DNA of 38,721 nucleotides from positions 1 to 38,721 of the forward strand of contig JAISNL010000032.1 in the NCBI GenBank assembly GCA_031276235.1, in the 5' to 3' direction. The notes beneath the pieces are model-generated. The model was not told the DNA's origin. It searched no databases and saw nothing but the letters and a program-made list of their open reading frames with translations. Position numbers and translations under genes: made by a program. Numbering within the stretch: the stretch's first letter is position 1; each line of letters starts with the position of its first letter. This document shows positions 8,679 through 38,721 of the stretch, piece after piece. Source of the DNA: Prevotellaceae bacterium (lineage in GTDB: Bacteria; Bacteroidota; Bacteroidia; Bacteroidales; UBA932).

Positions 8679-10076
8679 ATGTTTGAAACAAAGGTTTACG
8701 TAGAAAGAAGAAACAAATTAAAAAACATGTTTCGCAAGGGGACGGAATTATTACTGTTTATAGGAAACGGAGAATCTCCAATGAATTATCCATCCAACGC
8801 TTACAGATTTCGTCAGGACAGCACATTTTTATATTACTGGGGCATCAATTATCCCGATTGCGCCGCCGTAATAGATGTAGAAAAAGATACGGAATGTCTG
8901 TACATTAATGATGTTGACATTGACGACATAATATGGATGGGACCTCAGGAATCGGTAAAAGCAAAAGGAGCGCGCGCCGGAGTAAAATCGGTATATCCGC
9001 TCAAAGATCTTTTTACATCAATAAACAACGCCGTACGGGCAGGACGCAAAATCCATTTTTTGCCTCAATACCGTCAGGATAATGCAGAAATGCTGTCAAC
9101 GCTTTTGGGTATAAAATCAAAACATGTGAAAAACTATGTTTCTAAAAAATTTATAGACGCCGTAATAGCCATGCGCTCGGTGAAAGATGAATACGAAATA
9201 GAAGAAATAGAAAAAGCCTGCAATATCGGCTATAAAATGCACACAGCCGTAATGCGCAAATGTAAGCCCGGACTGATGGAGTATGCTCTGGCAGGCGAAA
9301 TAGAAGGAATAAGCATAGCCGAAAACGGATATATTTCGTTTCCTGTGATATTGTCGCAAAACGTACATATACTGCACAATCATGACCACAGCCAAAAACT
9401 TGCAGAAAACAGAATGTTGATAACGGATGCAGGCGCAGAAAACAACATGAACTACTGCTCGGATTTTACGCGCACAATACCTGTAAACGGTAAATTTACA
9501 CAGAAACAAAAAGACATTTACAACATAGCGCTTGCCGCAAACAACAAAACAATAGAACTTGCAAAGCCCGGCGTTACCTACAAAAGCATACATCTCGAAA
9601 TAGCAAAAATAATAACGCGCGGCTTGTGCGATTTGGGAATAATGCGCGGCAACGTTGACGATGCAGTAGAAAATGGAGCGCACGCACTTTTCCTGCCTCA
9701 CGGACTCGGACACATGATGGGACTTGACGTCCACGATATGGAAAATCTTGGCGAAGATGCCGTAGGATACGACAGAGAAACTGTGCGTTCCACTCAATTC
9801 GGCACATCATCGCTGCGCATGGGACGCCAACTGCAAAAAAACTTTGTGGTAACAGACGAACCCGGAATTTATTTTATTCCAGAACTTATTGCCAAATGGA
9901 AAAGCGAAAAAATCAACGAAGCGTTTATCAACTACACCAAAGTGAACGAATATATGGATGTAAGCGGAGTACGCATCGAAGATGATTTGCTTATTACCGA
10001 AAACGGTTGTCGTCTGCTTGGCAAAAAACGTATTCCGATAACAGTTGACGAAATTGAAGAAATGATGAAAAAATAG
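8679..10076 (+). CDS. pepP: Xaa-Pro aminopeptidase (family M24B)
   Basis: This 465-residue metallopeptidase releases N-terminal residues that precede proline. An N-terminal AMP_N domain (about 1-160) has the typical N-Y-x-x-N-x-Y-x-F-R-Q-D-S-x-F-x-Y segment. The pita-bread catalytic domain follows. All five dinuclear metal ligands can be placed: Asp250 (T-D-A-G), Asp262 (S-D-F-T-R), His345 (L-P-H-G-L-G-H), Glu394 (D-E-P-G-I-Y) and Glu434 (R-I-E-D-D). No signal peptide is seen, so it should be cytoplasmic. The start at 8679 fits the family N terminus. It stands alone between two repeat-bearing intergenic regions. Confidence 0.94.
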   Translation: MFETKVYVERRNKLKNMFRKGTELLLFIGNGESPMNYPSNAYRFRQDSTFLYYWGINYPDCAAVIDVEKDTECLYINDVDIDDIIWMGPQESVKAKGARAGVKSVYPLKDLFTSINNAVRAGRKIHFLPQYRQDNAEMLSTLLGIKSKHVKNYVSKKFIDAVIAMRSVKDEYEIEEIEKACNIGYKMHTAVMRKCKPGLMEYALAGEIEGISIAENGYISFPVILSQNVHILHNHDHSQKLAENRMLITDAGAENNMNYCSDFTRTIPVNGKFTQKQKDIYNIALAANNKTIELAKPGVTYKSIHLEIAKIITRGLCDLGIMRGNVDDAVENGAHALFLPHGLGHMMGLDVHDMENLGEDAVGYDRETVRSTQFGTSSLRMGRQLQKNFVVTDEPGIYFIPELIAKWKSEKINEAFINYTKVNEYMDVSGVRIEDDLLITENGCRLLGKKRIPITVDEIEEMMKK

Positions 10077-10432
10077 TTGACAGTTGACACTTGACAGTTA
10101 TTTTTTTATTCACTCTTATGGATTGCTTCGTCGCTACGCTCCTCGCAATGACGAATCAACCACGCAGCGCGTCATTGCGAGCGTAGCGAAGCAATCCAGA
10201 AAAGTGAAATAAATAAGGTTTTATCATCGCTTGTTAAACACTATGAGTTGTTATATTCTATTTATTTTTCATCACTATATTAGAAAAACCTCACATGCAT
10301 CATTTGTTAATTTTTAATAGAACAAAATAATAGTTTACTGACTACGTTTTAATATAAACCATTTGCAGCAAATCAAAATATTTGCTTCTAACTTTGACAT
10401 ATAATGTAAGAATGTAGATTACAAATTTGACT
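10077..10432. other. Intergenic region with inverted repeat, no gene
   Basis: This 356-base gap separates the aminopeptidase from the small HTH gene. Its first third holds AGTTGACAGTTGACACTTGACAG repeats and the inverted repeat at 10120-10197. The rest is AT-rich, and I see no ORF or RNA gene. Confidence 0.5.
10120..10197. repeat. Imperfect inverted repeat made of two copies of a dispersed element
   Basis: The left arm (10120-10152) and right arm (10171-10197) are reverse complements except for two extra triplets (TCG and CCT) in the left arm. The shared core is GTCATTGCGAGCGTAGCGAA followed by GCAATCC. The right half and its flank, through AGAAAA at about 10203, match the copy at 6478-6528. 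The arms could fold as a long hairpin downstream of the aminopeptidase and may act as a transcript end. Confidence 0.65.
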
Positions 10433-10681
10433 TCATTTATCTATTGATGCAAAAAAATCAGACATGGAGATAGAGAAATATTTACAAATATCATTTAATG
10501 TACTAACAGTTATATTTGTTTTTCCGTTTTCGATTCGTGCTATATGTATATCTGTATCAATAAAAAAACTATCTTGAGAAATATTTTTCTCTATTCGTAA
10601 TTGCTTAATTCGCTTGGCAATTAACGCGATTAGTTCTATATTACATCTATGCGGCGTCATTTTTTTTGACAAAAATGACAT
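10433..10681 (-). CDS. Small XRE-type helix-turn-helix regulator
   Basis: An 82-residue protein that is almost only one HTH_3/XRE DNA-binding domain. It shows I-A-K-R-I-K-Q-L-R-I-E-K-N-I-S-Q (about 24-39), then I-A-R-I-E-N-G-K (about 48-55) and T-L-N-D-I-C-K-Y-F (about 62-70). The start at 10681 lies five bases from a 44-base palindrome. An alternative ATG at 10660 would remove seven residues and leave the domain intact. It is transcribed away from three plus-strand genes that begin at 10758. The arrangement suggests autoregulation and control of the divergent genes through the palindrome. That is inference; stand-alone HTH proteins of this size also serve as antitoxins or phage-type repressors. 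Confidence 0.85.
   Translation of the reverse strand: MSFLSKKMTPHRCNIELIALIAKRIKQLRIEKNISQDSFFIDTDIHIARIENGKTNITVSTLNDICKYFSISMSDFFASIDK
10656..10679. promoter_or_regulatory. Second small dyad near the start of the HTH gene
   Basis: GTCATTTTT (10656-10664) is the reverse complement of AAAAATGAC (10671-10679), with six bases between. The TGAC half-sites resemble those at the centre of the larger palindrome. It could be a second operator, but it overlaps the predicted start of the HTH gene. Confidence 0.35.
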
Positions 10682-10685
10682 TTTT

Positions 10686-10729
10686 AAAAATATCTTTCGC
10701 TGACAAATTTGTCAGTGAAAGATATTTTT
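10686..10729. promoter_or_regulatory. 44-base palindrome, candidate operator between divergent genes
   Basis: Two 22-base arms meet at AAA/TTT with no spacer and a single G-T imperfection (10699/10716). The centre is TGACAAATTTGTCA and the arms extend through CGAAAGATATTTTT. It overlaps the predicted -33 element of the plus-strand operon and lies immediately upstream of the HTH gene start. That is where a repressor site acting on both directions would be expected. The dyad is seen in the sequence; binding by the HTH protein is inference. Confidence 0.6.
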
Positions 10730-10739
10730 TATAATTTTG
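10709..10739 (+). promoter_or_regulatory. Promoter of the three-gene island operon
   Basis: TTG at 10709-10711 and TAATTTTG at 10732-10739 are separated by 20 bases and match the Bacteroidota -33/-7 pattern. The -33 element lies at the centre of the 44-base palindrome, so a protein bound there should block this promoter. Confidence 0.65.
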
Positions 10740-10757
10740 TGAAAATATTTTAAGAGT

Positions 10758-10994
10758 ATGAAAAAAAGTAAAATTATTTTAGTTATTAACCTACTTATTA
10801 ATTGGTGTATAGGTTTAATTAAATTTTCTTCCGTAAGAAGAAATGAGGAAGTTAATTCTGCAGAATTGACAAGTGAAAAGATTGAGTATCTTAAAATTTT
10901 AAGTAAAGATACTTATGTAAAGCTTAATGCAAAAGCAATATTTAATGTTTTTGATGGCTTATCTAAAAATTTTGAGACAAACGCATTTAAATAA
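10758..10994 (+). CDS. Small membrane-anchored protein of unknown function
   Basis: A 78-residue protein with a hydrophobic N-terminal segment (about residues 5-22, S-K-I-I-L-V-I-N-L-L-I-N) followed by a charged, mostly helical tail. It begins 18 bases after the -7 box of a good promoter and is the first gene of a plus-strand operon. I do not recognise a family. An N-terminal membrane anchor with the rest in the cytoplasm or periplasm is the simplest reading. The base composition is AT-rich, like the next two genes. Confidence 0.6.
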   Translation: MKKSKIILVINLLINWCIGLIKFSSVRRNEEVNSAELTSEKIEYLKILSKDTYVKLNAKAIFNVFDGLSKNFETNAFK

Positions 10995-11007
10995 GGACGA
11001 ATATAAA

Positions 11008-11406
11008 ATGACTATGGAAATTTTTAACGAAAAACAAAAAAAATCTCTTGCAAATTTTTTTATTTGCTATTTAATTGATGACTATGAAAAAGCATTTCCT
11101 ACTATGTTTGGGTATGTTGATATTGATAGTACATGGATGATGCACTTTGATAAATTGCAAAAATTATTCAGCAAATCTGAATTAGATTTAGATGAATTTG
11201 ATGTTAGGGAAATTCAATATATGGATTCAAATACCTCATTAAATATTATTAAAAATTTTAATACAGAACAAAAGAATGTATTAAACAAAATAATCAAGAC
11301 CAAGTCTATTTCTCTTTTGGCAGGTTCATTAGACCCAAAGTTCTCTAATATGTTGGCAGAATTAGTGCATTTAATTAATTATTTACGATCCTTTAATGAA
11401 AAATAA
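11008..11406 (+). CDS. Unrecognised soluble protein of the island operon
   Basis: I start at the ATG at 11008, preceded by AAGGACGA, giving 132 residues from MTMEIFNEKQ. An upstream in-frame start at 10927 would overlap the previous gene by 68 bases. The protein has no signal peptide or membrane segment. It is acidic to neutral, and looks all-helical with a central E-L-D-L-D-E-F-D-V-R-E segment. I recognise no family and no catalytic motif. The stop overlaps the start of the next gene within ATGAAAAATAA, which suggests translational coupling. It begins 13 bases after the small membrane protein. Confidence 0.65.
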   Translation: MTMEIFNEKQKKSLANFFICYLIDDYEKAFPTMFGYVDIDSTWMMHFDKLQKLFSKSELDLDEFDVREIQYMDSNTSLNIIKNFNTEQKNVLNKIIKTKSISLLAGSLDPKFSNMLAELVHLINYLRSFNEK

Positions 11407-12292
11407 AACTATGGAAAAAGATGATATTTTATATTTACTACGCAAAAAATACGATGAAGTTTTCCCTTTTTCCGAAGGATTATCACGAGTAAAAAGAAAT
11501 GAAAAATGGGGATATGTTAACGAACACATGGAGGAAGTTATATCTTTGAGATTTGATATTGCTAATGATTTTAAAAATGGAATAGCAATTGTAAATTACA
11601 ACGATGCTTTATCTGGTTTACTTGCATTAAGTATAATGGACAGAAAGGATGCTTCAGACGAAATTAAGAATACGGCAATGCGTGTAGCATTGTATGGCAA
11701 ATGGTTAGTAATAAATACAGAAGGTCAAAGTATTACAAAAAGAGCCTATGATAGCATAGAAGAATTTGCAGATGGACGAGCATTAGTTGGTATAGGGGAT
11801 GAATTCAATAGAAAATTTGGATACATTGATACAAATGGTAATGAAATTATTTCAGTACAATACGATTTTGCAAAATCATTCAACAATGGAATTGCTTTAG
11901 TTAGATCAGATGACATATCAAAAGGTATAGATTTTTTTATAGATATCAATGGTAATAAAATATCTAATGATATAGTTATTGAACTTAAATATAAGGATTA
12001 CCATCCTGAAGACATTATCAATATATCAGAAGAAATTTCTGGGATGATAGCATATAGGAGAAAAATGCTCCATGATGAAAAAGATGTTACTATGAAAGAG
12101 TGTTTATGGGACATCTTAAAATTTAAAAAACAAAATAGAGAACTAAAGGCACATACTGAATGGGTGGAGAATCATCCAGAGGAATTTTATAAAAACCTTG
12201 CAGATGATTATAAACGAGTAGAAAAAAATAGTTGTATAGGTGTTATAATAATAGTGATAATAATAAGTGTAATAATTATTGCATTGGTTTAA
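11396..12292 (+). CDS. WG-repeat protein with C-terminal membrane anchor
   Basis: This 298-residue protein contains WG-repeat (beta-strand) units. They read E-G-L-S-R-V-K-R-N-E-K-W-G-Y-V-N (about 22-37), A-D-G-R-A-L-V-G-I-G with F-G-Y-I-D-T-N-G-N-E (about 122-149), and N-N-G-I-A-L-V-R-S-D (about 162-171). A charged helical part follows, and a very hydrophobic C-terminal segment of V and I (about 279-298) sits at the very end, as in tail-anchored proteins. There is no signal peptide, so the repeat domain probably faces the cytoplasm. WG repeats occur in proteins of mostly unknown function. An in-frame ATG at 11411 is an alternative start. It is the last gene of the island operon. Confidence 0.8.
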   Translation: MKNKTMEKDDILYLLRKKYDEVFPFSEGLSRVKRNEKWGYVNEHMEEVISLRFDIANDFKNGIAIVNYNDALSGLLALSIMDRKDASDEIKNTAMRVALYGKWLVINTEGQSITKRAYDSIEEFADGRALVGIGDEFNRKFGYIDTNGNEIISVQYDFAKSFNNGIALVRSDDISKGIDFFIDINGNKISNDIVIELKYKDYHPEDIINISEEISGMIAYRRKMLHDEKDVTMKECLWDILKFKKQNRELKAHTEWVENHPEEFYKNLADDYKRVEKNSCIGVIIIVIIISVIIIALV

Positions 12293-12368
12293 ATATTTAA
12301 TGCTTGCAATTTTAAATATTGAAATAAATAAAATTTCTCATCTATCGCCTTTATTATGTCAAAGTCTA

Positions 12369-12385
12369 ATTAGCCGTTCCTTACA
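12369..12385 (+). repeat. 17-base sequence shared with the transposase remnant
   Basis: TAATTAGCCGTTCCTTA here is the exact reverse complement of 30848-30864, at the upstream edge of the degraded ISAs1-type transposase. It lies in the 259-base gap after the WG-repeat gene. It may be a leftover of the same element. Confidence 0.45.
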
Positions 12386-12474
12386 AATTAAATTAAAGTA
12401 GCATTTAAGTATGATATTTCAGAAAAAAATGCGAAAAAAAGTTGTTTGGCTTTTGCCACCAATATTTCCCTAAA

Positions 12475-12504
12475 TTCCGCCGAGGGTTCGTTCTTACTTT
12501 CGGA
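12475..12504 (+). repeat. Dispersed repeat with GAGGGTTCG and TTTCGGA
   Basis: TTCCGCCGAGGGTTCG, seven variable bases, then TTTCGGA. The same arrangement with one change in the first block occurs on the minus strand at about 22731-22760. Both copies are intergenic. Confidence 0.45.
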
Positions 12505-12551
12505 AACATTCTGCACTGTATTTTTATTTGTTTTTGAATTGCGGCATATCA

Positions 12552-14378
12552 TCAAAATCTGTAAGTAAGCCCTACGGAAGCGATGAATCCCGGCACTTGA
12601 TAGCGGCTGTAAATATCGTATTTTTGATTTAACACATTAGCCAGATTACCGAATACCGAAAAATTATTTGTAATAAGATATTCCGCTCCTATACTTAAAT
12701 CAAATACATCTTTCAGTTTGCGGGAATAAGGTTTTGAAGGAGGAGACCACTGTTGAGAAATAAAATATTGAAGAGCATAACGTTTTAATAAGGCGCGCAA
12801 ATCGGCAGTAAGAACCAAATCGTAAGAAATTTTATAACGCAGGTTCAAATTGCCTTCAAATATCGGTTTGTGCCATGCGTGTTCAATTTCCGTATTATTT
12901 TCGGTTTTCAGGTTATATTTATTATAAACAGCCTTTGCATAAACCGAAAATATGTCATCTACGTATGATAATTCCGCTCCTATGTTTATCTTATTTCCTT
13001 TTGCATATATTACAGCAAATTCTTTGTAATCGCCACTGATAATCGGATTTGGATTTAGATTTGGAGGTGGAGGTGGCAGAAGATTTAAGGTTGTCGCGAC
13101 ACTATTTCCATAGAGCGGTAAATATTCGAGTTTTGAATAGGATGTAAAGACATTATACGAAAAAGATTCTACATCTCCTTTTATTGAAAATACTCCGATA
13201 ATTTTGTGATTGGTATTTTTGAATATTGGATTTAAATAGGCAGCAAAGACAGGACTTTGTATAATGTCCACAATATTTCCGAAAGATATATAGTTATTTT
13301 CCATAGCAAGTTTGCGGAAATTATTGACTTCGGTTTCGCCTTTTATTTCTATTGAAGGAGTAAAATAGTCGTGAATTTTATAGGATGCTGAAACGGCTGG
13401 ATATATTCGATGTTTTGTTGTTTTGTTGTAATTGTCCAAAAGGTACTGAGCGCCGAGTTTAACCGAAAGATAGTCGTCATTGTAAGCCCACGAAGGCAGG
13501 GCGCTCAAAAGGATATTGTTGCCGGCAGAGTCAAGCGCCTTGTTGCGGTTGTACAATGCAGCACGCGCCGCTATTGACACCGACTGTGTGTCGTCGTCGA
13601 GGTCTGCGCCAAGCAAGCCCGAAAGGGCAAAGGCGTTTTCTTTCATTGTTGCGGTTTTTATGTCTTTATGTTTATCTCTCGCATTGAAAAGTTGGTAAGA
13701 TGCGCCAAACGAGTAGAACACTTCGCCTGCGTCCCTGTCCGATTTCCAGAGAAGATTTCCGTTAAACAGATTCATTGCTCGCCTGTCATTATCCAATGAA
13801 GGGTATAAATCTCCCAAATAAATATCTGGATCGAAGCCGTAGAGATACAAATCGCGGCGCGAATAATCCACATTCAGCGTAACAGTAGAACCATCGAGAA
13901 AGAATTTTGAAAAAATTCCCAAGTCGTTATTCATAAAATCGCTTTTAACTTTTTTTGTGTGTTTATTGCCTTCGAGTTTTGTTTTTCCGAAAAACGAGCG
14001 GTGATTGGCATAAAAACCCACCAAAACCGATTCTGCATTTTTGTTGCTTATATAAAAATCGAACAGCGGCGAGATTTGATAACCGATTCCCGCTCTGATA
14101 TAGCCAAGTCCGGGCAGCGAGTTTTCGCCGTCAATAATTTTTGCAGACGAAATGGGCGCAAGCCCGAAATTTCCGGGCGATGATTTTGGGAATATTGAAT
14201 AACTGAAGGCATCGCGCACATTGGATGAGTCGGCGGCGACTGTCGGTTCGTACCATATTTTTTGAGCATCCATAACCGTCGGGTCATAGTTGCGCGTAAC
14301 TTCAACGTCTTTGTTGGGTTGAGCGGCAAGCGCAAATGCCATCCCGCTCAAAATAAATATTGATAAAAGTTTTTTCAT
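12552..14378 (-). CDS. Outer-membrane beta-barrel protein (plug-less, TonB-receptor-like)
   Basis: A 608-residue exported protein with a signal peptide (1-19, cleavage about ALA/AQP). After it comes V-E-V-T-R-N-Y-D-P-T-V-M-D-A-Q-K-I (about 25-41), a segment I recall from Bacteroidota barrel proteins annotated as TonB-dependent receptors without a plug. The rest is alternating beta strand with many aromatic girdle residues. It ends in L-T-Y-R-F, a typical outer-membrane C terminus recognised by the Bam machinery. A loop with P-P-P-P-P-N-L-N-P-N-P (about 440-450) is presumably exposed. It lies 22 bases downstream of a 1001-residue TPR protein, so the two are likely cotranscribed and may form one envelope complex. 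The substrate is unknown. Confidence 0.8.
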   Translation of the reverse strand: MKKLLSIFILSGMAFALAAQPNKDVEVTRNYDPTVMDAQKIWYEPTVAADSSNVRDAFSYSIFPKSSPGNFGLAPISSAKIIDGENSLPGLGYIRAGIGYQISPLFDFYISNKNAESVLVGFYANHRSFFGKTKLEGNKHTKKVKSDFMNNDLGIFSKFFLDGSTVTLNVDYSRRDLYLYGFDPDIYLGDLYPSLDNDRRAMNLFNGNLLWKSDRDAGEVFYSFGASYQLFNARDKHKDIKTATMKENAFALSGLLGADLDDDTQSVSIAARAALYNRNKALDSAGNNILLSALPSWAYNDDYLSVKLGAQYLLDNYNKTTKHRIYPAVSASYKIHDYFTPSIEIKGETEVNNFRKLAMENNYISFGNIVDIIQSPVFAAYLNPIFKNTNHKIIGVFSIKGDVESFSYNVFTSYSKLEYLPLYGNSVATTLNLLPPPPPNLNPNPIISGDYKEFAVIYAKGNKINIGAELSYVDDIFSVYAKAVYNKYNLKTENNTEIEHAWHKPIFEGNLNLRYKISYDLVLTADLRALLKRYALQYFISQQWSPPSKPYSRKLKDVFDLSIGAEYLITNNFSVFGNLANVLNQKYDIYSRYQVPGFIASVGLTYRF

Positions 14379-14400
14379 ATATGTATTTTTAATTTAATAT

Positions 14401-17400
14401 TTAATTTTTTCCTTTTAATTTTTTAATAGTTTCAACTGTTTCTTTTGCTTCGCTGATAACTCCGTCATCTGTTTTTCTATAATTTTCTATTATACTGTTC
14501 AGAGTGGCTTCTGCCTGAAAGTAATCTTTTTTGTCGATATAAATATTGGCAAGTATAATAAAACTGCGGGCAAGCCATTCTCCATGAAATGCTTTGGATT
14601 CGTTAAATTTGAAAATCATTTTTTCCGCTTCATCCGCTTTTCCTTTTTGATATGTATAGTCAATAATATTGTAAGTGGCTTCAGAGCCTTCTATAGTTTT
14701 TGGATTTTCCGCCAGAATTTTGAAAACGCTTATAGCGTCGTCATCTCTGCCGAGTTCTTTCAACGCATGGGCTTTTGTTATGAGCGCCTCGGTTCTGCCG
14801 TCGGCTTTTATTGTTGGCAATGCTGCATATTTTGTTGCCATTTCGGCTGCCTGTTCATAATTTTTAACTTTATTATACGCTCTCATTGCAAACAGCAGAG
14901 CCTCGCGCACATCTTCGCTGTTTTCCGATTCTCTGGCGGCGCGTGCAAAGGCTTGCGCAGCCGCTTCAAAATCTTCTGTCATATATTTTGCGCGTGCGTA
15001 TCTGTTCAGTATGTTTTTCGGTAATCCGTTTCCTGATGGAATATTTATTAAATCTTTAAACATGTCGGCTGCTTCTGCATATTTTTCACGCCTGTAATAG
15101 CAATCGCCGATGTAATATTTTGCGTTTAAATGGCTGTTTCCATTCGGAAAATCTTTCAAATACTGTTGCATTGCTGCTGTTGAGCCGCTGCAATCGCCAA
15201 AAAGATACTTGCGTTCGGCTGCTGCAAACGAAAGCGAATCGCGATTATCTTTTGTTACCGTAATTTTTTTTCTGTCCGCGTATGCAAAAAATTCATTTAC
15301 GTTTCCTCCGTTCACATAAATATCTTTTATTCCATCAAGCGCGGTTTTTGCTTCCTGCGAGTTCGGATATTCATCTATCACCCGTTTATAATATACCAAA
15401 GCGTCATCTGTTCTTTCATCGTTGATGCTGATAAGTCCGAGTTCTATCAATGCCTGACGGTAATAAGATGTTTTTCCGTATTTGTTCAGTATTACCTTAA
15501 AATCTTTTTCGGCATTCTCATAATCCTGTTTTTGAACGTACATTCTGCCCGATTCAAAACATGCCGCCGCCGCATATTGCGAATTTGGGTATTGTGAAAT
15601 AACTGCCGCAAGCAGTTTTCGTTTTTTTACATCATCGTTGAGCAAACCCAGCGACAAAGCGTTTTGATACAGGGAATAATCGGGATTTGACTTTTTAATT
15701 GAGTAAGCGCGTTCATAGTTTTCACTTGCCGTTCTAAAATCTCGCTGCTTGAATTTACAGTCGCCTATACGGTTATAGCAATCGGCAACATAAACATTTT
15801 TTGAATTTCCTGCAAGGTTCAAATATTTTGTAAACCACGATGCTGCTTCGTTGATGTTTTTGTTATCAAGTTCGCAATAGCCAAGCGTATAATGCGCCAT
15901 TTTGTATTCGTCGGTATTTTTTGTAATATTTGTATTTATAAAATTTTGCAATCCTGTTTTTGCCTCGTCATAATTTTTTTTGCTGTATTGAATTTCGGCT
16001 TGCCAGTATTTTGCAAGGCTTGCAATAGAGGCATCGTATTTCGACAGTTTCAGCGATGAGTCAAAATATGTCATAGCCTCGTCGATTTTTTTTGCTTTGA
16101 ACGCTTCCAGTCCTGCATAATATGCGGCTTTTTGAAGGTTTGCATAATCCTGTTCCGTGGGATTTGATACGCTTTCTATCAATGCGATTGCTTCGCTGAA
16201 ACGTTTTTCAGTAATATAGGTATTCATCAAAAAGTTTCTTATTTGCGGGTCATTTGCTTTCGATTTGTCTTTTTTCAAAAAATCGCTCATTGGTTTTGTA
16301 TCGCCTTTCAGTTCCAAAGCAAGTTTGGCATGGTTGAATGTTGCATCAGCGGTTGTTTCCTCATCAAAATTCATTTTGCCTGCGCGTTCAAACATCGGCA
16401 GGGCTTTATCTTTTTTGCCGGTATTTGCATAAATTCCGCCAAGCAGATATAAAGTTTTTTGGCTCAAAGTATCGTTTTTTATTGGGATTCGCTGTAATGT
16501 TTGCGCCGCCTTATCATAATTTCCCTGCTGAAAATCTATGTAAGCCATTAAATAATAATCGGCGGCAGAAATTTTTCCTCGCGCCGAAGATGAATTTTCA
16601 TATTTATCAAAATATTCACGCGCTTTTGTGTAATCGCTTTTATTCATATATGATTCTGCAACAACTCTTGCTATTTCGCCCTGTCTCTGCTTCGAGGCTT
16701 TTTCGTAAAAAACCGTTCCTTCCTCTATCACTTTATCATATTCTTTCTGATAAAAATAAATCTGTAAAATATAGTACGGAACAACACTTGCATAATCATC
16801 GTCATTTTTGAGATTTAGAAAACTTTCGAGAGCGGATGCGTATTTTTTCTGTTCGTACAGAGTATGCGCATAATAGTATTCAGCCTGCGATGCAAAACGC
16901 GTATGAATATTGTTTTTTGTATTGGCAAAATACTGTAACGCTTCATCGGTAGCGCCTGATTTGAGATGAATCTGACCGTATTTGAAATCAAATTCGCCCT
17001 GTTCGCCCGGCGATAATTCGCTACGTTTTACCTGTTTAAAATATTTTTCAGCATCGCGATACGAATTTTTTACATCATAAAAATAAACTCCGAGAGCAAA
17101 TACCAAATCATTGCGCAATTTGCTTTCGGTATATTTGTTGATGAATGTTTGCGCCGTAACTTCTGCATTTGGCTGTTTCAGTTTGAGTGAGCACATGGCA
17201 TTGTAATAGTCAATGTTTGACAATTTAGTCTGGTCGGTAGCAGGAACAGAAGAGCGCTCCTGTACAAATAACTGTTGCGCTTCTACATAAACGCCTTTAT
17301 TATAAAGGTCGATAGCTTTGTTGTAGTTGCTTTGTGCTTTTGCCGAAACACATACTGTTACAGATGTGAAAGCAACCAACGCGAATTTCAATAATTTTAA

Positions 17401-17406
17401 TTTCAT
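14401..17406 (-). CDS. Large periplasmic TPR-repeat protein
   Basis: This 1001-residue protein has a signal peptide (1-24, cleavage about AKA/Q) followed by tetratricopeptide repeats along almost its whole length. The repeats carry A-x-x-x-Y-x-x-x-L and A-x-x-Y-F-x-K-Y patterns every 34-37 residues. No enzyme domain or C-terminal sorting signal is visible. TPR arrays are protein-protein scaffolds. In Bacteroidota, large TPR proteins of this kind work at the outer membrane or in cell-envelope assembly (family knowledge), and the barrel gene directly downstream supports such a role. A possible -7 box TAATTTTG lies on the minus strand at 17497-17490. Because the array is uniform, I cannot say which TPR subfamily this is. 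Confidence 0.85.
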   Translation of the reverse strand: MKLKLLKFALVAFTSVTVCVSAKAQSNYNKAIDLYNKGVYVEAQQLFVQERSSVPATDQTKLSNIDYYNAMCSLKLKQPNAEVTAQTFINKYTESKLRNDLVFALGVYFYDVKNSYRDAEKYFKQVKRSELSPGEQGEFDFKYGQIHLKSGATDEALQYFANTKNNIHTRFASQAEYYYAHTLYEQKKYASALESFLNLKNDDDYASVVPYYILQIYFYQKEYDKVIEEGTVFYEKASKQRQGEIARVVAESYMNKSDYTKAREYFDKYENSSSARGKISAADYYLMAYIDFQQGNYDKAAQTLQRIPIKNDTLSQKTLYLLGGIYANTGKKDKALPMFERAGKMNFDEETTADATFNHAKLALELKGDTKPMSDFLKKDKSKANDPQIRNFLMNTYITEKRFSEAIALIESVSNPTEQDYANLQKAAYYAGLEAFKAKKIDEAMTYFDSSLKLSKYDASIASLAKYWQAEIQYSKKNYDEAKTGLQNFINTNITKNTDEYKMAHYTLGYCELDNKNINEAASWFTKYLNLAGNSKNVYVADCYNRIGDCKFKQRDFRTASENYERAYSIKKSNPDYSLYQNALSLGLLNDDVKKRKLLAAVISQYPNSQYAAAACFESGRMYVQKQDYENAEKDFKVILNKYGKTSYYRQALIELGLISINDERTDDALVYYKRVIDEYPNSQEAKTALDGIKDIYVNGGNVNEFFAYADRKKITVTKDNRDSLSFAAAERKYLFGDCSGSTAAMQQYLKDFPNGNSHLNAKYYIGDCYYRREKYAEAADMFKDLINIPSGNGLPKNILNRYARAKYMTEDFEAAAQAFARAARESENSEDVREALLFAMRAYNKVKNYEQAAEMATKYAALPTIKADGRTEALITKAHALKELGRDDDAISVFKILAENPKTIEGSEATYNIIDYTYQKGKADEAEKMIFKFNESKAFHGEWLARSFIILANIYIDKKDYFQAEATLNSIIENYRKTDDGVISEAKETVETIKKLKGKN

Positions 17407-17497: not shown

Positions 17498-17754
17498 TAC
17501 ATATTTTTTAATATCAGCGAAAATTAGATGATTTGCTACATGTTAAATTATCGAAAATATTAGATATCAGACATTCTCGCCGAAATAAATATTAGCCGCA
17601 ATGTGCAGTATGCGCGTTGTATGACATCATAATAACGCAGTTCGTTGTTGCGAGCGCAAACGGCAGCAAACAACAATTCCCTCCGATACAGCAAAATTTG
17701 ATTTTAACAGATGGATTTCTTTGTTATAATTCATCAATCATCGCTCCGAGCGTC
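17498..17754. other. Intergenic spacer before the tandem repeat
   Basis: Part of the 665-base gap between the TPR gene and btuB. This stretch has no supported gene, RNA or hairpin; the rest of the gap is the repeat array and its flanking dispersed repeat. Confidence 0.5.
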
Positions 17755-17985
17755 TTGTTCGACTCTTTTAGAACCTCGCGAGGCTCTCAGAGAACCTTGT
17801 TCGACTCTTTTAGAACCTCGCGAGGCTCTCAGAGAACCTTGTTCGACTCTTTTAGAACCTCGCGAGGCTCTCGGAGAACCTTGTTCGACTCTTTTAGAAC
17901 CTCGCGAGGCTCTCGGAGAACCTTGTTCGACTCTTTTAGAACCTTGATCGACTCTTTTAGAACCTCGCGAGGCTCTCGGAGAACC
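17755..17985. repeat. 42-base tandem repeat array (five full units and one half unit)
   Basis: The full units are 17755-17796, 17797-17838, 17839-17880, 17881-17922 and 17944-17985. A 21-base half unit at 17923-17943 sits before the last. Each begins TTGTTCGACTCTTTTAGAAC (TTGATC in the last), continues with the palindrome CCTCGCGAGG, and ends GCTCTC(A/G)GAGAACC. Units 1-2 have A and the others G at the variable base. Because 42 is a multiple of three, several frames stay open on both strands. That explains the apparent ORFs here, which I do not regard as genes. Units can fold as small hairpins. Confidence 0.85.
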
Positions 17986-17990
17986 TTGAT

Positions 17991-18022
17991 CCTCGCTTTT
18001 TGTGACAAAATGACAGTTTTGA
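17991..18022 (+). repeat. Dispersed repeat with CCTCGCTTTT and GTGACAAAATG, copy 2
   Basis: CCTCGCTTTTTGTGACAAAA continues TGACAGTTTTGA and nearly equals 8285-8317. It directly abuts the 42-base array, so array and element may have arrived or evolved together. Confidence 0.6.
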
Positions 18023-18071
18023 GAAAAAACGCTCGCCTCTTTTTTTATTTGCTCAATAATTCGCATATATT

Positions 18072-34783: not shown

Positions 34784-35608
34784 CTACTCGCAATTACATT
34801 CAAAGTTGTAATTTACTTCGTATGCGCCTAATTCTATTTGGGATTCTTGGATGCGGGGGGCGCTTTCTATGTCTGTCGGCTCGCGGTTGAGGGCGTTGTT
34901 GCCGGCGTTGAGCGCTGGACTGCCAAGTTGCGGACGATAATAACCATCTATGCTTGGCGCGGCTGATGCTGAAACAGGATGCATAAAGGCAGGAGCATTT
35001 GACGGATTTGTACCGTTTATGTTGCCTGCGCCTGATGGATTCAAATCTTGAATTAGCGAATACTGATATGCTGGCGAACCGCCTGCGCTGTAAACATTGT
35101 TGCTGCTTCCTGCGGCATTGCCCCAGACAATGGAATTACCAATTTGCGGCGATGAATTATTTGTATATATTCCGCCGCCGCTTGTTGTTGCGCGGTTGCC
35201 GCTTACCGTGATATTTGTAAGCGCGGGCGAACCGCCGTTGAGGTAGATACCGCCGCCACTCGCTGATAGATTCCCGCTCACAACTGCATTGATAAGTTTT
35301 GGCGATGAATTATATGCATATATTCCGCCGCCATATGCTGATGCTTCGCTGCCTTTTATTTCTACATTTACTATATTTGGCGATGAATTAGCAAAATATA
35401 TTCCGCCGCCGCTGTTTGCGCTTATAGACTGCCCATTTACGGTGATTGTGCCGCTGCCTTTTGCCTTGCCGTTTCTAACAACAAAACCGTCTAATCGGGC
35501 GGTATCCGTGCCGCTTATCATGCTGCCTGCGCTTATTACAGTATGATACGAATTATCTCCGCTCAAAATACTTGGATTTTGTGCAAGGTTACGCTCTGAT
35601 AATAATGT
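34784..35608 (-). repeat. Right arm of the 825-base inverted repeat
   Basis: Position x of the left end aligns with 35609 minus x here over all 825 bases with no gap. Protein identity is about 94 percent overall, and the last 99 residues are identical. Similarity stops exactly at the stop codon, where the flanking terminators differ. Confidence 0.93.
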
Positions 35609-38600
35609 TTCCGTACCTGCAAAGCCGCCATAAATCCTGACTCCTGCAGCTATTACAAAGGCTTTATCCTTGTCTGATGTTCCGTTGCCTGCCTTATGCA
35701 GTGGTAGGTATCTGCCTCTTGCAACCCAGATTTCTTTTATCTTTTTTATCTCTGTGCATGCTTTTGATTGTGCCGCCAAAAGCGGGTCTGCCAAGCCCGG
35801 ATAAGCGTTTGCCCATGATGAACCATCTTTGTTGCCTGCGCCTGATACCGTTACATAAACTCTGCCGTTGGCATCGGGAGAGACAGAAATCTCAGCGGAA
35901 TTGTCAAACTCATACGCGCCCATGTCTATTGCAGAGCCGGAAAGGCGCGGATTGCCTGCAACATCCTTCTCGCCGTTAAAATCGGCTATTCCTGCATTCG
36001 TTAAATATGTGGCATTGTAGCCTTGATTTACGCAGGGGCTGCAAGCCTCAAGCTGAAAATCTCCTTCTATAGTAGGAATATATACAGTTGCGCTTTGAGG
36101 ATTTACAAACAGCGGATTATTTGCCTCTATACCGTTTAAATTACCTGTACCTGCAGGATTTAGTCCGTCTATCAGGCAATAAGTATAAGTAGCGCTACTA
36201 CCTGCAGCTACTACCGTGCTATTTCCCCATACAATACTATTATATGCGTTCATCTGACCGCTATTAATATATATGCCCGAACCATTCGGAGTTGCATTTC
36301 CGCTAACGGTTACATTGGTGAATGTGGATATTCCGCCACCTAAAAAATAAATTCCGCCGCCGGAGCCACCTGCCGCATTACCGCTGACAAGTACATTTGT
36401 TAATTTTGGAGAAGAGCCATTAATACATATTCCACCGCCATGGTCATTACTATTACTTGCTGTCATATTGCCGCGTATTTCCAGATTAACCAAGTCAGGC
36501 GAAGAATTGACAATATGTATTCCTGCCCCGTACATGTTTATTGAATGTCCGTTTACAGTAACCGTGCTACTTCCTGTTGCACGACCGTGAATTATGCTGA
36601 AACCGTCCAAGCGGGCATCACCAACATCGCCTGCTGAAATCACTATATGATAACTGTTATCGGTATCTACATCCTCTGTACCTATATCGCCACTCAAAAT
36701 ACATTTGTTGGCTGCAAGGTTGCGCTGTGCGAGGCTTGTTTCCGTACCGGCAAAACCGCCGTAAACCTTAACTCCTGGTACAAGCACAAAGGCATTGTCC
36801 CTGCCGCCGTCAGCACAACCTATGGCGGATGCGTGGTATAGAGGCTTGTATGTGCCTGATGCAACCCATATTTCGTTTACTTCTGCGTGAGTGCGGGCAA
36901 ATATGAGGGCAGTAGCCAGTTCGGGCATAGCATTATCCCATGACGAGCCGTTGCTATTGCCTCCGCTCACAGATTTGTTCACATAAAGCCTGCCGTTGGC
37001 ATCGGGAGTATATTCAAAGCCGTCAAACTCATAAGCGCCCATATCTATGCGCAATCCATGCCTGCGTGCGATGCCCGCTACATCTGTTTGATTGGTAAAA
37101 TCGGCTATTCCAACATGTTCTAAATAAATAGAATCATTGCCTCTATCCACGCAGGGGCTGCAAGCCTCAAGCCGAAAATCTCCCTCTATGGTAGGCGAAC
37201 TGGAAGTAGCCGCCTGGGGATTTATAAAAGTCGGTATATTGATACCGGTTACAAGAGTACCGTCTAAGTTACCTGTACCTTCCGGATTTAGCCCGCTTAT
37301 TAAACAATTAGTATAAGTAGCGCTACCATTTGTATCCGTAGCCACGGTATTTCCCCATACAATGGTATTATATGCTTTCAGCTGACAGTTATAAATATAT
37401 ATTCCCGAACCGTTAGTATTAGTCGAAACATAATTCCCGCTAACAGTTACATTGGTTAATGTAGGTACGCCGGCACTGCCACCAACATATATCCCGCCGC
37501 CGTAATTGGCGCGATTACCGCAGACAAGCACATTTGTCAATTTTGGAGAAGAATTTCCAGCGTATAACCCGCCGCCATAGTATGCGTTATTGCCGCGAAT
37601 TTCCAGATAAACAAGATTTGGGGAAGAATATGTAAGAGATATTCCGCCTCCGTTACGTCGAGAAACAGATTGTCCGTTTACGGTAAGCGTGCTGCTGCCT
37701 CCGTCTGCATTACCGTGAATTATGCTGAAACCGTCTAATCGGGCTGTGTCTGCTCCGCTTATCATGCTACCTGCTACTATAACTACATGATAACAATTAT
37801 CGGTATCTACATCCTCTGTACCTATATCGCCACTCAAAATACATTTGTTTGCAGCAAGGTTGCGCTGTGCGAGGCTTGTTTCCGTACCTGCAAAACCGCC
37901 GTAAATCTTAACTCCTGCAACAAGTACAAAGGCATTGTCCCTGCCGCCGTCAGCACAACCTATGGCGGATGCGTGGTATAGAGGCTTGTATGTACCAGAT
38001 GCAACCCATATTTCGTTTACTTCTGCGTGAGTGCGGGCAAATATGAGGGCAGTAGCCAGTTCGGGCATAGCATTATCCCATGACGAGCCGTTGCCGGTGC
38101 CTCCGCTCACAGATTTGTTCACATAAAGCCTGCCATTGGCATCGGGAGTATATTCAAAGCCATCAAATTCATACGCGCCCATGTCTATGCTCAATCCATG
38201 CCTGCGTGCGATGCCTGCGGCATCGGTTTGATTGTCAAAATTTGATGCTCCAACGTGCGCTAAATAAATAGAATCACTGCCTTTGTCCACGCAGGGGCTG
38301 CAAGCCTCAAGCCGAAAATCTCCCTCTATGGTAGGCGAGCCGGAAGTAGCCAACACGGGATTTATAAAATTCGGTATATTTAATGAAGTAACAAGAGTAC
38401 CGTCCAAGTTTCCTGTACCTGCAGGATTTTGCCCTTGTATCAAACAATTAGTATAAGTAGCGCCGCTACCACTTATACCATTGGTATTTCCCCAGACAAT
38501 GGTATTATATGCTTTCATCTGACTGCTACTACTATATATTCCATAACCATAATTTCCGCTGATAGTTACATTGGTTAATGTCAATACGCTGGCATTATAA

Positions 38601-38721
38601 TTGTATATCCCGCCGCCGGAACTGGCTACATTACCGCTGACAAGTACATTTGTCAATTTTGGAGAAGACAGTTGAGCGAATATCCCGCCGCCCCTATCTG
38701 TTGTCCTATTGCCGCGAATTT
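34784..38721 (-). CDS. Large modular parallel beta-helix surface protein (5' end outside window)
   Basis: The frame is open to base 38721, so at least 1312 residues are present and the N terminus is missing; the TTG at 38656 is internal. The protein consists of four related modules of about 380 residues. A module runs from P-D-A-N-G-R-x-Y-V, through W-V-A-S-G-T-Y-K-P-L-Y, Y-G-G-F-A-G-T-E-T, I-L-S-G-D and beta-helix coils with G-G-G-I-Y and S-S-P-K-L-T-N-V. Each ends in S-P-C-V-D-x-G and I-D-M-G-A-Y-E, resembling the choice-of-anchor Q block. The last module ends with SPALNAG and IELGAYE and equals the left-end gene. It is probably exported and surface-exposed; ligand and anchor are unknown, and no Por C-terminal domain is seen. 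Confidence 0.85.
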   Translation of the reverse strand, partial: IRGNRTTDRGGGIFAQLSSPKLTNVLVSGNVASSGGGIYNYNASVLTLTNVTISGNYGYGIYSSSSQMKAYNTIVWGNTNGISGSGATYTNCLIQGQNPAGTGNLDGTLVTSLNIPNFINPVLATSGSPTIEGDFRLEACSPCVDKGSDSIYLAHVGASNFDNQTDAAGIARRHGLSIDMGAYEFDGFEYTPDANGRLYVNKSVSGGTGNGSSWDNAMPELATALIFARTHAEVNEIWVASGTYKPLYHASAIGCADGGRDNAFVLVAGVKIYGGFAGTETSLAQRNLAANKCILSGDIGTEDVDTDNCYHVVIVAGSMISGADTARLDGFSIIHGNADGGSSTLTVNGQSVSRRNGGGISLTYSSPNLVYLEIRGNNAYYGGGLYAGNSSPKLTNVLVCGNRANYGGGIYVGGSAGVPTLTNVTVSGNYVSTNTNGSGIYIYNCQLKAYNTIVWGNTVATDTNGSATYTNCLISGLNPEGTGNLDGTLVTGINIPTFINPQAATSSSPTIEGDFRLEACSPCVDRGNDSIYLEHVGIADFTNQTDVAGIARRHGLRIDMGAYEFDGFEYTPDANGRLYVNKSVSGGNSNGSSWDNAMPELATALIFARTHAEVNEIWVASGTYKPLYHASAIGCADGGRDNAFVLVPGVKVYGGFAGTETSLAQRNLAANKCILSGDIGTEDVDTDNSYHIVISAGDVGDARLDGFSIIHGRATGSSTVTVNGHSINMYGAGIHIVNSSPDLVNLEIRGNMTASNSNDHGGGICINGSSPKLTNVLVSGNAAGGSGGGIYFLGGGISTFTNVTVSGNATPNGSGIYINSGQMNAYNSIVWGNSTVVAAGSSATYTYCLIDGLNPAGTGNLNGIEANNPLFVNPQSATVYIPTIEGDFQLEACSPCVNQGYNATYLTNAGIADFNGEKDVAGNPRLSGSAIDMGAYEFDNSAEISVSPDANGRVYVTVSGAGNKDGSSWANAYPGLADPLLAAQSKACTEIKKIKEIWVARGRYLPLHKAGNGTSDKDKAFVIAAGVRIYGGFAGTETLLSERNLAQNPSILSGDNSYHTVISAGSMISGTDTARLDGFVVRNGKAKGSGTITVNGQSISANSGGGIYFANSSPNIVNVEIKGSEASAYGGGIYAYNSSPKLINAVVSGNLSASGGGIYLNGGSPALTNITVSGNRATTSGGGIYTNNSSPQIGNSIVWGNAAGSSNNVYSAGGSPAYQYSLIQDLNPSGAGNINGTNPSNAPAFMHPVSASAAPSIDGYYRPQLGSPALNAGNNALNREPTDIESAPRIQESQIELGAYEVNYNFECNCE
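36650..37335 (-). repeat. Internal module repeat, copy 1 (pairs with 37790-38475)
   Basis: This stretch recurs 1140 bases further on with few changes. The best part, about 36657-36990 against 37797-38130, is nearly identical. The period of 1140 bases is 380 codons, so copies stay in frame. Confidence 0.85.
37790..38475 (-). repeat. Internal module repeat, copy 2 (pairs with 36650-37335)
   Basis: Second copy of the 1140-base module of the right beta-helix gene. The beta-helix segments between the copies diverge more than the W-V-A-S-G-T-Y and G-G-F-A-G-T-E parts. Confidence 0.85.

Follow-up and report, generated by a model that had tools for sequence, protein, structure and literature searches.

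The C proteins of restriction-modification systems regulate their own synthesis through a pair of operator sites, the adjacent C-boxes. RptR, an HTH-type protein of 79 amino acids, is a small repressor of type I restriction-modification islands; the available text of its report places it mainly with type I restriction-modification genes (54/117), in Gammaproteobacteria, acting at a 6-bp palindrome (PMC12255303). BrxR is a WYL-domain repressor that, according to the accessible part of its report, stands before varied defence systems, with defence cargo found downstream in 48% (PMC9122601).

In this study, we examine a small XRE-type regulator that is divergent from three tightly packed genes in a stretch of 38,721 nucleotides from a Prevotellaceae bacterium, referred to as the window; the source assembly is a draft of 2.6 Mb spread over 183 contigs. 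A first-pass annotation of this DNA had described a repressor, an operator and a coupled operon with membrane-linked members, and had compared the set to regulated defence or stress modules. Comparison with related genomes, cited here by their G numbers, bears out the repressor, the operator and the membrane-linked operon, and lends no support to the defence or stress theme. The best reading of these sequences is that a regulator-promoter unit has been recombined with changing, often envelope-linked cargo. We put at about 0.7 the probability that the locus is a self-contained repressor-promoter module with exchangeable cargo.

The four ORFs lie where they had first been placed, including the 13-base gap between genes 1 and 2 and the 11-base overlap between genes 2 and 3 (Table 1). 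They are probably all coding, since codon usage trained on genes of the window favours, for each of the four, the ORF's own frame over both shifted ones. The region is AT-rich, as had been claimed, with a GC content of 27-28% in 10001-12000 against 38-42% in many neighbouring kilobases, and an Rfam scan of 10000-12600 gave no match.

Table 1. Positions in the window of the regulator, the facing operon and their predicted control sites.
Feature	Position	Strand	Description
Conserved block	10425-10753		87.6% identical to the sister species G137 by blastn (330 alignment columns)
Regulator ORF	10433-10681	-	82 codons; XRE/Cro-CI type; recognition helix DTDIHIARIE
Predicted operator O2	10667-10680		weaker, imperfect site, 34 bp away from O1; reads TGTCATTTTTGTCA on the strand of the regulator
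Predicted operator O1	10701-10714		14 bp, perfectly palindromic: TGACAAATTTGTCA; central part of a longer palindrome (10686-10729)
Predicted operon promoter	10708-10739	+	TTTG (-33, 10708-10711, inside O1); TAATTTTG (-7, 10732-10739); spacer 20
Operon gene 1	10758-10994	+	78 aa; single N-terminal hydrophobic segment (hydropathy); relatives not found
Operon gene 2	11008-11406	+	132 aa; relatives not found
Operon gene 3	11396-12292	+	298 aa; WG repeats, charged stretch, C-terminal hydrophobic tail

Gene 3 is the one operon gene with a recognisable domain, and its assignment to the WG-repeat proteins was correct: it contains four WG-repeat stretches (PF14903, E 1.6e-31, 108.4 bits against a cut-off of 25.6). 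The membrane segments reported at the N-terminus of gene 1 and the C-terminus of gene 3 are both present as hydrophobic stretches. Because the C-terminal one is strong (best 19-residue hydropathy window from residue 280, mean 3.62), the gene 3 product is probably tail-anchored with cytoplasmic WG repeats. The gene 2 product is probably helical and cytoplasmic. Single-sequence AF2 models of the gene 2 and gene 3 proteins had pLDDT values of 48.8 and 38.1, too low for the models to be usable. Genes 1 and 2 had nothing above the Pfam cut-off, and apart from the WG repeats genes 1-3 were unrecognised by Pfam, NCBIfam, PHROGs and PADLOC. Their PHROG matches were sub-threshold (E 0.02-0.34), and in PADLOC they matched 0 families at E up to 1, in agreement with the earlier statement that the operon carries no known defence domain.

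Relatives of these genes are correspondingly scarce. Gene 1 had none in viral contigs or plasmids, and in the 11 genus genomes it found itself and one chance match, in G082 (E 0.07), which was set aside as a signal-sequence resemblance and not a relative. Gene 2 found only itself in 149 family genomes and had no relatives in plasmids, phages, viral contigs or genome contigs; its three other matches among 295 order genomes (E 0.001-0.006, in ORFs of 700-915 aa) were taken as chance. WG matches to gene 3 occur in 57 of the 149 family genomes, and in the matches listed the alignment covers chiefly the WG part and in no case the membrane tail; its plasmid matches are WG-repeat proteins, and viral contigs gave no match. 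On the genomes searched, the operon genes are species-specific orphans, gene 3 being shared only through its WG repeats. No function for the WG-repeat family was given in the papers found.

The DNA that is conserved is of a different extent. The block shared with the sister species G137 runs from 8 bases past the regulator stop to 5 bases before gene 1, and in G137 it stands at another site, where the DNA on both flanks is unrelated to the window. The genes facing the regulator there encode a membrane protein of 90 aa and two further proteins whose starts look signal-like, and none of the three is similar to the products of genes 1-3, as judged by blastp only and in a genome that is 69% complete. 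One of these facing proteins occurs, for its part, in just 1 of the 149 genomes of the family. That the two loci are one old locus diverged past recognition was considered and rejected, as the regulator DNA is 87.6% identical and the facing genes share nothing by blastp. On this comparison the conserved unit is the regulator and its promoter, not a four-gene set. The candidate four-gene system of the first-pass annotation therefore fails, because the genes are not conserved together: regulator relatives face other genes, and gene 2 has no relative among the family genomes.

The chromosomal setting is also changeable. The upstream aminopeptidase gene is present in 10 of 11 genus genomes, the window's own counted, and in the stretch taken beside it the four genes were found in 0 of the 9 others, some of whose contigs end soon after. 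In G056 and G082 the aminopeptidase gene is followed by two genes, an outer-membrane-type and a TPR gene, that in the window lie on the far side of the block (12552-17406) and are inverted relative to the aminopeptidase; since this pair is inverted, the block is read as standing at a rearrangement point. An inverted repeat pair (GGATTGCTTCG... / ...GCGAAGCAATCC) adjoins the block at 10120-10203, and G082, G094 and G137 have stretches resembling it close to their aminopeptidase genes. Elsewhere in the window, a minus-strand ORF of near-identical repeats (QGSPRASRGSKRVE...) at 17734-18066 is perhaps a repeat array and not a gene, and large, repeat-rich, secreted-looking ORFs occupy either end (43-825 and 34784-38656).

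The regulator itself matched only HTH families in Pfam, above the curated cut-offs: HTH_26 (E 7.7e-8, 32.9 bits, cut-off 22), HTH_3 (E 7.9e-8, 32.7 bits, cut-off 23) and HTH_19 (31.9 bits, cut-off 30.2), which places it in the XRE / Cro-CI group (PF01381, PF13443). It has no sensing domain, and the Pfam scan found no WYL domain. PADLOC, NCBIfam and PHROGs added only HTH-level matches. The best in PADLOC, to a restriction-modification control protein (E 9.9e-9), is of ordinary HTH level, and those to the antitoxin models Y4mF (E 6.6e-4) and PezA (E 0.0032) are weak. The ORF of 82 residues is present as annotated, but the true start is probably at codon 8 (position 10660), giving 75 aa, because the relatives begin at the equivalent codon and the first annotated codons overlap the conserved operator O2.

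Regulator relatives (E up to 1e-9) were found in 5 of 398 genomes in the family search and 6 of 393 in the order search, the window's genome counted in both, and the sole close relative in the genus is that of G137 (87% identity). One genome of the order, G752, has 12 regulator paralogs, several of them in tandem on one contig (L107-L112), and none of the 12 has the strict operator described below. In G076 the regulator reading frame is broken (L085 830-1149) and both operator sites are intact. The G007 relative (L086 1335-3974) may ride on a mobile element, because its neighbours are phage/plasmid-type primase genes (D5_N, DUF5906, DUF6371).

The predicted operator O1 is kept with the regulator's recognition helix. 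In all seven close loci, whose regulators have the helix HIAR(I/V)E, a match of 12-14 of the 14 positions lies within about 140 bp upstream: it is exact in the window, G137, G063 and G076 and is 12-13/14 in G007, G725 and G721. Shuffled upstream DNA reached the observed score in 0 of 2000 trials for six of these loci and in 2 of 2000 for G007. A second site, corresponding to O2, lies exactly 34 bp regulator-ward in four of the seven (window, G137, G063, G076). Matches fall to 8-9/14 in G706 and most G752 copies, with 10/14 in the G752 copy L091 (helix HVARIE); no match was obtained for rows L092 and L101 of this scoring. Within the 11 genus genomes, exact copies of TGACAAATTTGTCA occur only at the two regulators, and one-mismatch copies are no commoner than those of the reversed control pattern. 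The only occurrence of TGACAAATTTGTCA found in print, inside a Staphylococcus primer, was judged a coincidence.

A looser form of this site extends across the class. A profile of six regulators (E up to 1e-12) found 29 places in 25 of 395 Bacteroidia genomes, and the 28 non-self places together with the seven close loci make up a set of 35 regulators. Outside this set, G543, G706 and 12 G752 places served as controls along with 13 generic XRE loci; of these 27, L048 gave no usable match and the other 26 collapsed to 22 distinct proteins, some control rows being anchored on the same neighbouring paralog. The dyad NGAC-N6-GTCN lies within 130 bp upstream of 22 of the 35 regulators, where 0.09 would be expected from shuffles, mostly starting 45-67 bases before the core start. 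It was found in the downstream window of 0 of 35 and at 0 of 22 distinct control proteins.

Within these predicted operators, two recognition-helix residues track two operator bases. Helix H goes with an outer T..A pair in 16 of 16 cases and helix N with A..T in 3 of 4 (p 0.0035), the exception being G1072b with helix N and an outer T; a C at base 5 occurs with helix A in 0 of 10 and with helix G in 7 of 10 (p 0.003). Both p-values ignore relatedness and, because the loci are related, overstate their independence. The H/N comparison omits G878 (shifted helix) and G878b (Q), and at loci with two sites one was chosen by hand, usually that nearest -50, but at -91 for G1125 and -64 for G958. XRE membership goes together here with a predicted palindromic upstream operator, co-varying with the recognition helix, in 22 of the 35. 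The strict dyad is missing in 13 of the 35; G1024, G946 and G007 among them have near misses, and G1086 (helix IHVARIE), G1081 and G1056 (IHIGR) have neither dyad nor near miss despite a typical helix. Outside the sample, a plasmid regulator of Hymenobacter sp. BRD67 with helix IHVARLE has TGACAAATGTGTCC upstream, as the helix rule predicts; it lies near AbiEii-like genes. A distant Clostridioides regulator with another helix lacks the dyad.

The operators also bear on the promoter of the facing genes. According to one report (PMC7366714), the -7 element of Bacteroidota promoters is TAnnTTTG, and Bacteroides fragilis has in addition a TTTG around -33, a motif not seen in Flavobacterium johnsoniae. 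In the window, O1 is 43 bases from gene 1 and TAATTTTG ends 18 bases before the gene 1 start. Across the 22 operators, TTTG is present on the cargo strand in 10, and in 7 of those at least five of six -7 positions follow at 18-23 bases. These 7 promoter-overlapping operators compare with 1.42 expected from shuffles and with 0 on the regulator strand. Sigma-70 type promoter matches were at chance level (15 against 18.4). In those seven loci, the window among them, the operator overlaps the predicted -33 element and a correctly spaced -7 element follows, so that a repressor sitting on the operator would mask the predicted promoter of the facing genes.

What stands behind these promoters changes from locus to locus. 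A left neighbour is present at 34 of the 35 loci and is divergent in 31 of the 34, and these 31 facing genes include only three alike pairs: G1092/G816, G1072/G1072b (one genome) and G063/G076 (one genus). By a crude hydropathy and signal rule, applied to related loci, 17 of 31 facing genes are exported-like, against 4 of 32 right-hand genes across the regulator (p 0.0005); among divergent neighbours of control XREs, 3 of 16 are. The 14 facing genes that are not exported-like include the methyltransferase-like pair in G063/G076 and, as scored, the window, where automatic ORF selection used a reading of gene 2 that is 159 aa long in place of gene 1. When ten facing or second genes were scanned with Pfam, 5 of the 10 gave no match; the others yielded type IX secretion tails (in a CHU_C protein and in two proteins related to each other), a DUF6567 protein and, as a second gene, one of glutamine cyclotransferase type. 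In G725 a lipoprotein-like facing gene is followed by a gene for a secretion-tail protein. Since a divergent layout is common at control XREs as well (16 of 21), layout alone says little, and the weight falls on the operator, on its overlap with the predicted promoter and on the way cargo is exchanged.

These points also bear on whether the regulator and the operon belong together at all. An autoregulating orphan XRE could simply lie beside a species-specific WG-repeat operon under independent control, as the failure of regulator relatives to keep these operon genes and the frequency of divergent neighbours at control XREs would allow. We regard this as improbable: O1 sits on the predicted operon promoter at the right spacing, the short gap between O1 and gene 1 holds a predicted -7 element, and an equivalent arrangement recurs at other loci. 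Still less probable is a toxin-antitoxin-like pair, with the XRE protein as both antitoxin and repressor and one of the small operon proteins as toxin. A small XRE protein with HTH-level antitoxin matches beside small genes invites this interpretation, but the genes are divergent and not co-directional, toxin families are unmatched in Pfam, PADLOC, NCBIfam and PHROGs, and the operator is kept while the facing genes swap between sister species, which a specific antitoxin would hardly tolerate.

The alternative with the largest share, though still unlikely, is a mobile-element or defence-type module in which the repressor, in the manner of restriction-modification control proteins, delays or limits the expression of toxic cargo on entry into a new cell and the orphans are membrane anti-phage or abortive-infection effectors. 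The cargo is patchy, AT-rich, orphan and membrane-linked, the G007 relative lies beside primase genes (D5_N, DUF6371), the Hymenobacter plasmid relative lies near AbiEii-like genes, and in PADLOC the regulator comes closest to a restriction-modification control protein. That match, however, is only of ordinary HTH level, genes 1-3 match no defence model, inspection by eye of the window's ORFs around the block revealed no restriction-modification genes, and the facing genes of relatives are often for lipoproteins or secreted proteins.

Because the wider cargo leans towards exported products (lipoproteins, type IX secretion cargo), the proposed repressor-promoter module most likely controls envelope or surface genes of an accessory kind. 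In such a module, a dimer of the 75-aa repressor would bind O1 and block the operon promoter; its binding to O2, at the start of the regulator, would hold down production of the repressor itself. The operon would normally be low and would be expressed once the repressor falls. Since the regulator has no sensing domain, release would come through repressor loss: the repressor might be diluted, removed by proteolysis or countered by an antirepressor, or the module might arrive in a cell that has none. The cargo in the window would comprise a small single-pass protein (gene 1), a cytoplasmic and helical one (gene 2) and a WG-repeat protein with a tail anchor (gene 3); from their topology we would guess that they act jointly at the inner membrane as a membrane-linked complex.

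A broader proposal, held tentatively and at somewhat under even odds, is that these are class-wide plug-in modules of Bacteroidia with a readable helix-to-operator code, which recombine before accessory envelope genes unrelated to one another so that newly acquired surface genes gain a private, self-limiting switch, possibly with a burst of expression on entry into a cell lacking the repressor. If true, this would explain tight local control of accessory, often exported Bacteroidia genes without a sensor domain or a global regulator. The helix-to-operator rule would predict where such genes lie, and the modules would supply natural orthogonal repressor-operator pairs for a gut bacterial class poor in genetic tools.

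Among known systems, the restriction-modification C proteins share the small XRE fold and the paired operator sites for autoregulation, predicted in the window, and supply the regulator's best PADLOC match; they differ in that C-boxes are adjacent, whereas the window sites are 34 bp apart, and restriction or methylation genes were not recognised by eye near the block, where genes 1-3 have no such family match. Unlike the anti-phage systems in PADLOC, genes 1-3 include no recognised effector or sensor protein, and unlike type II toxin-antitoxin loci, the layout is divergent and no co-directional toxin partner was recognised. With the WG-repeat proteins (PF14903), gene 3 shares the WG stretches, its tail being unmatched among the relatives listed. 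RptR and BrxR, both tied to defence in the available text of their reports, are the closest published cases of a single repressor placed ahead of different modules; no such tie was found for the present regulator family. RptR is alike in that its palindromic operator is kept together with the protein in many genomes, usually with at least two sites; its recognition helix is strictly conserved, and at times it precedes genes of unknown function (PMC12255303). Compared by description only and with the accessible part of that report, the present family differs in its host class, Bacteroidia, in its 14-bp site TGACAAATTTGTCA (TAGCTA-type in RptR) and in its mostly exported or orphan facing genes. 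BrxR likewise is one regulator family before many modules with inverted-repeat operators upstream (PMC9122601), and differs, as its available text describes it, in having a WYL ligand domain and defence cargo, whereas the window regulator is HTH only and faces no recognised defence cargo. No description of this regulator and operator module was found in the literature searched, a search whose coverage mostly leaves out subscription journals. Small autoregulated XRE control is of a known kind; what would be new is its class-wide reuse with changing, often exported cargo.
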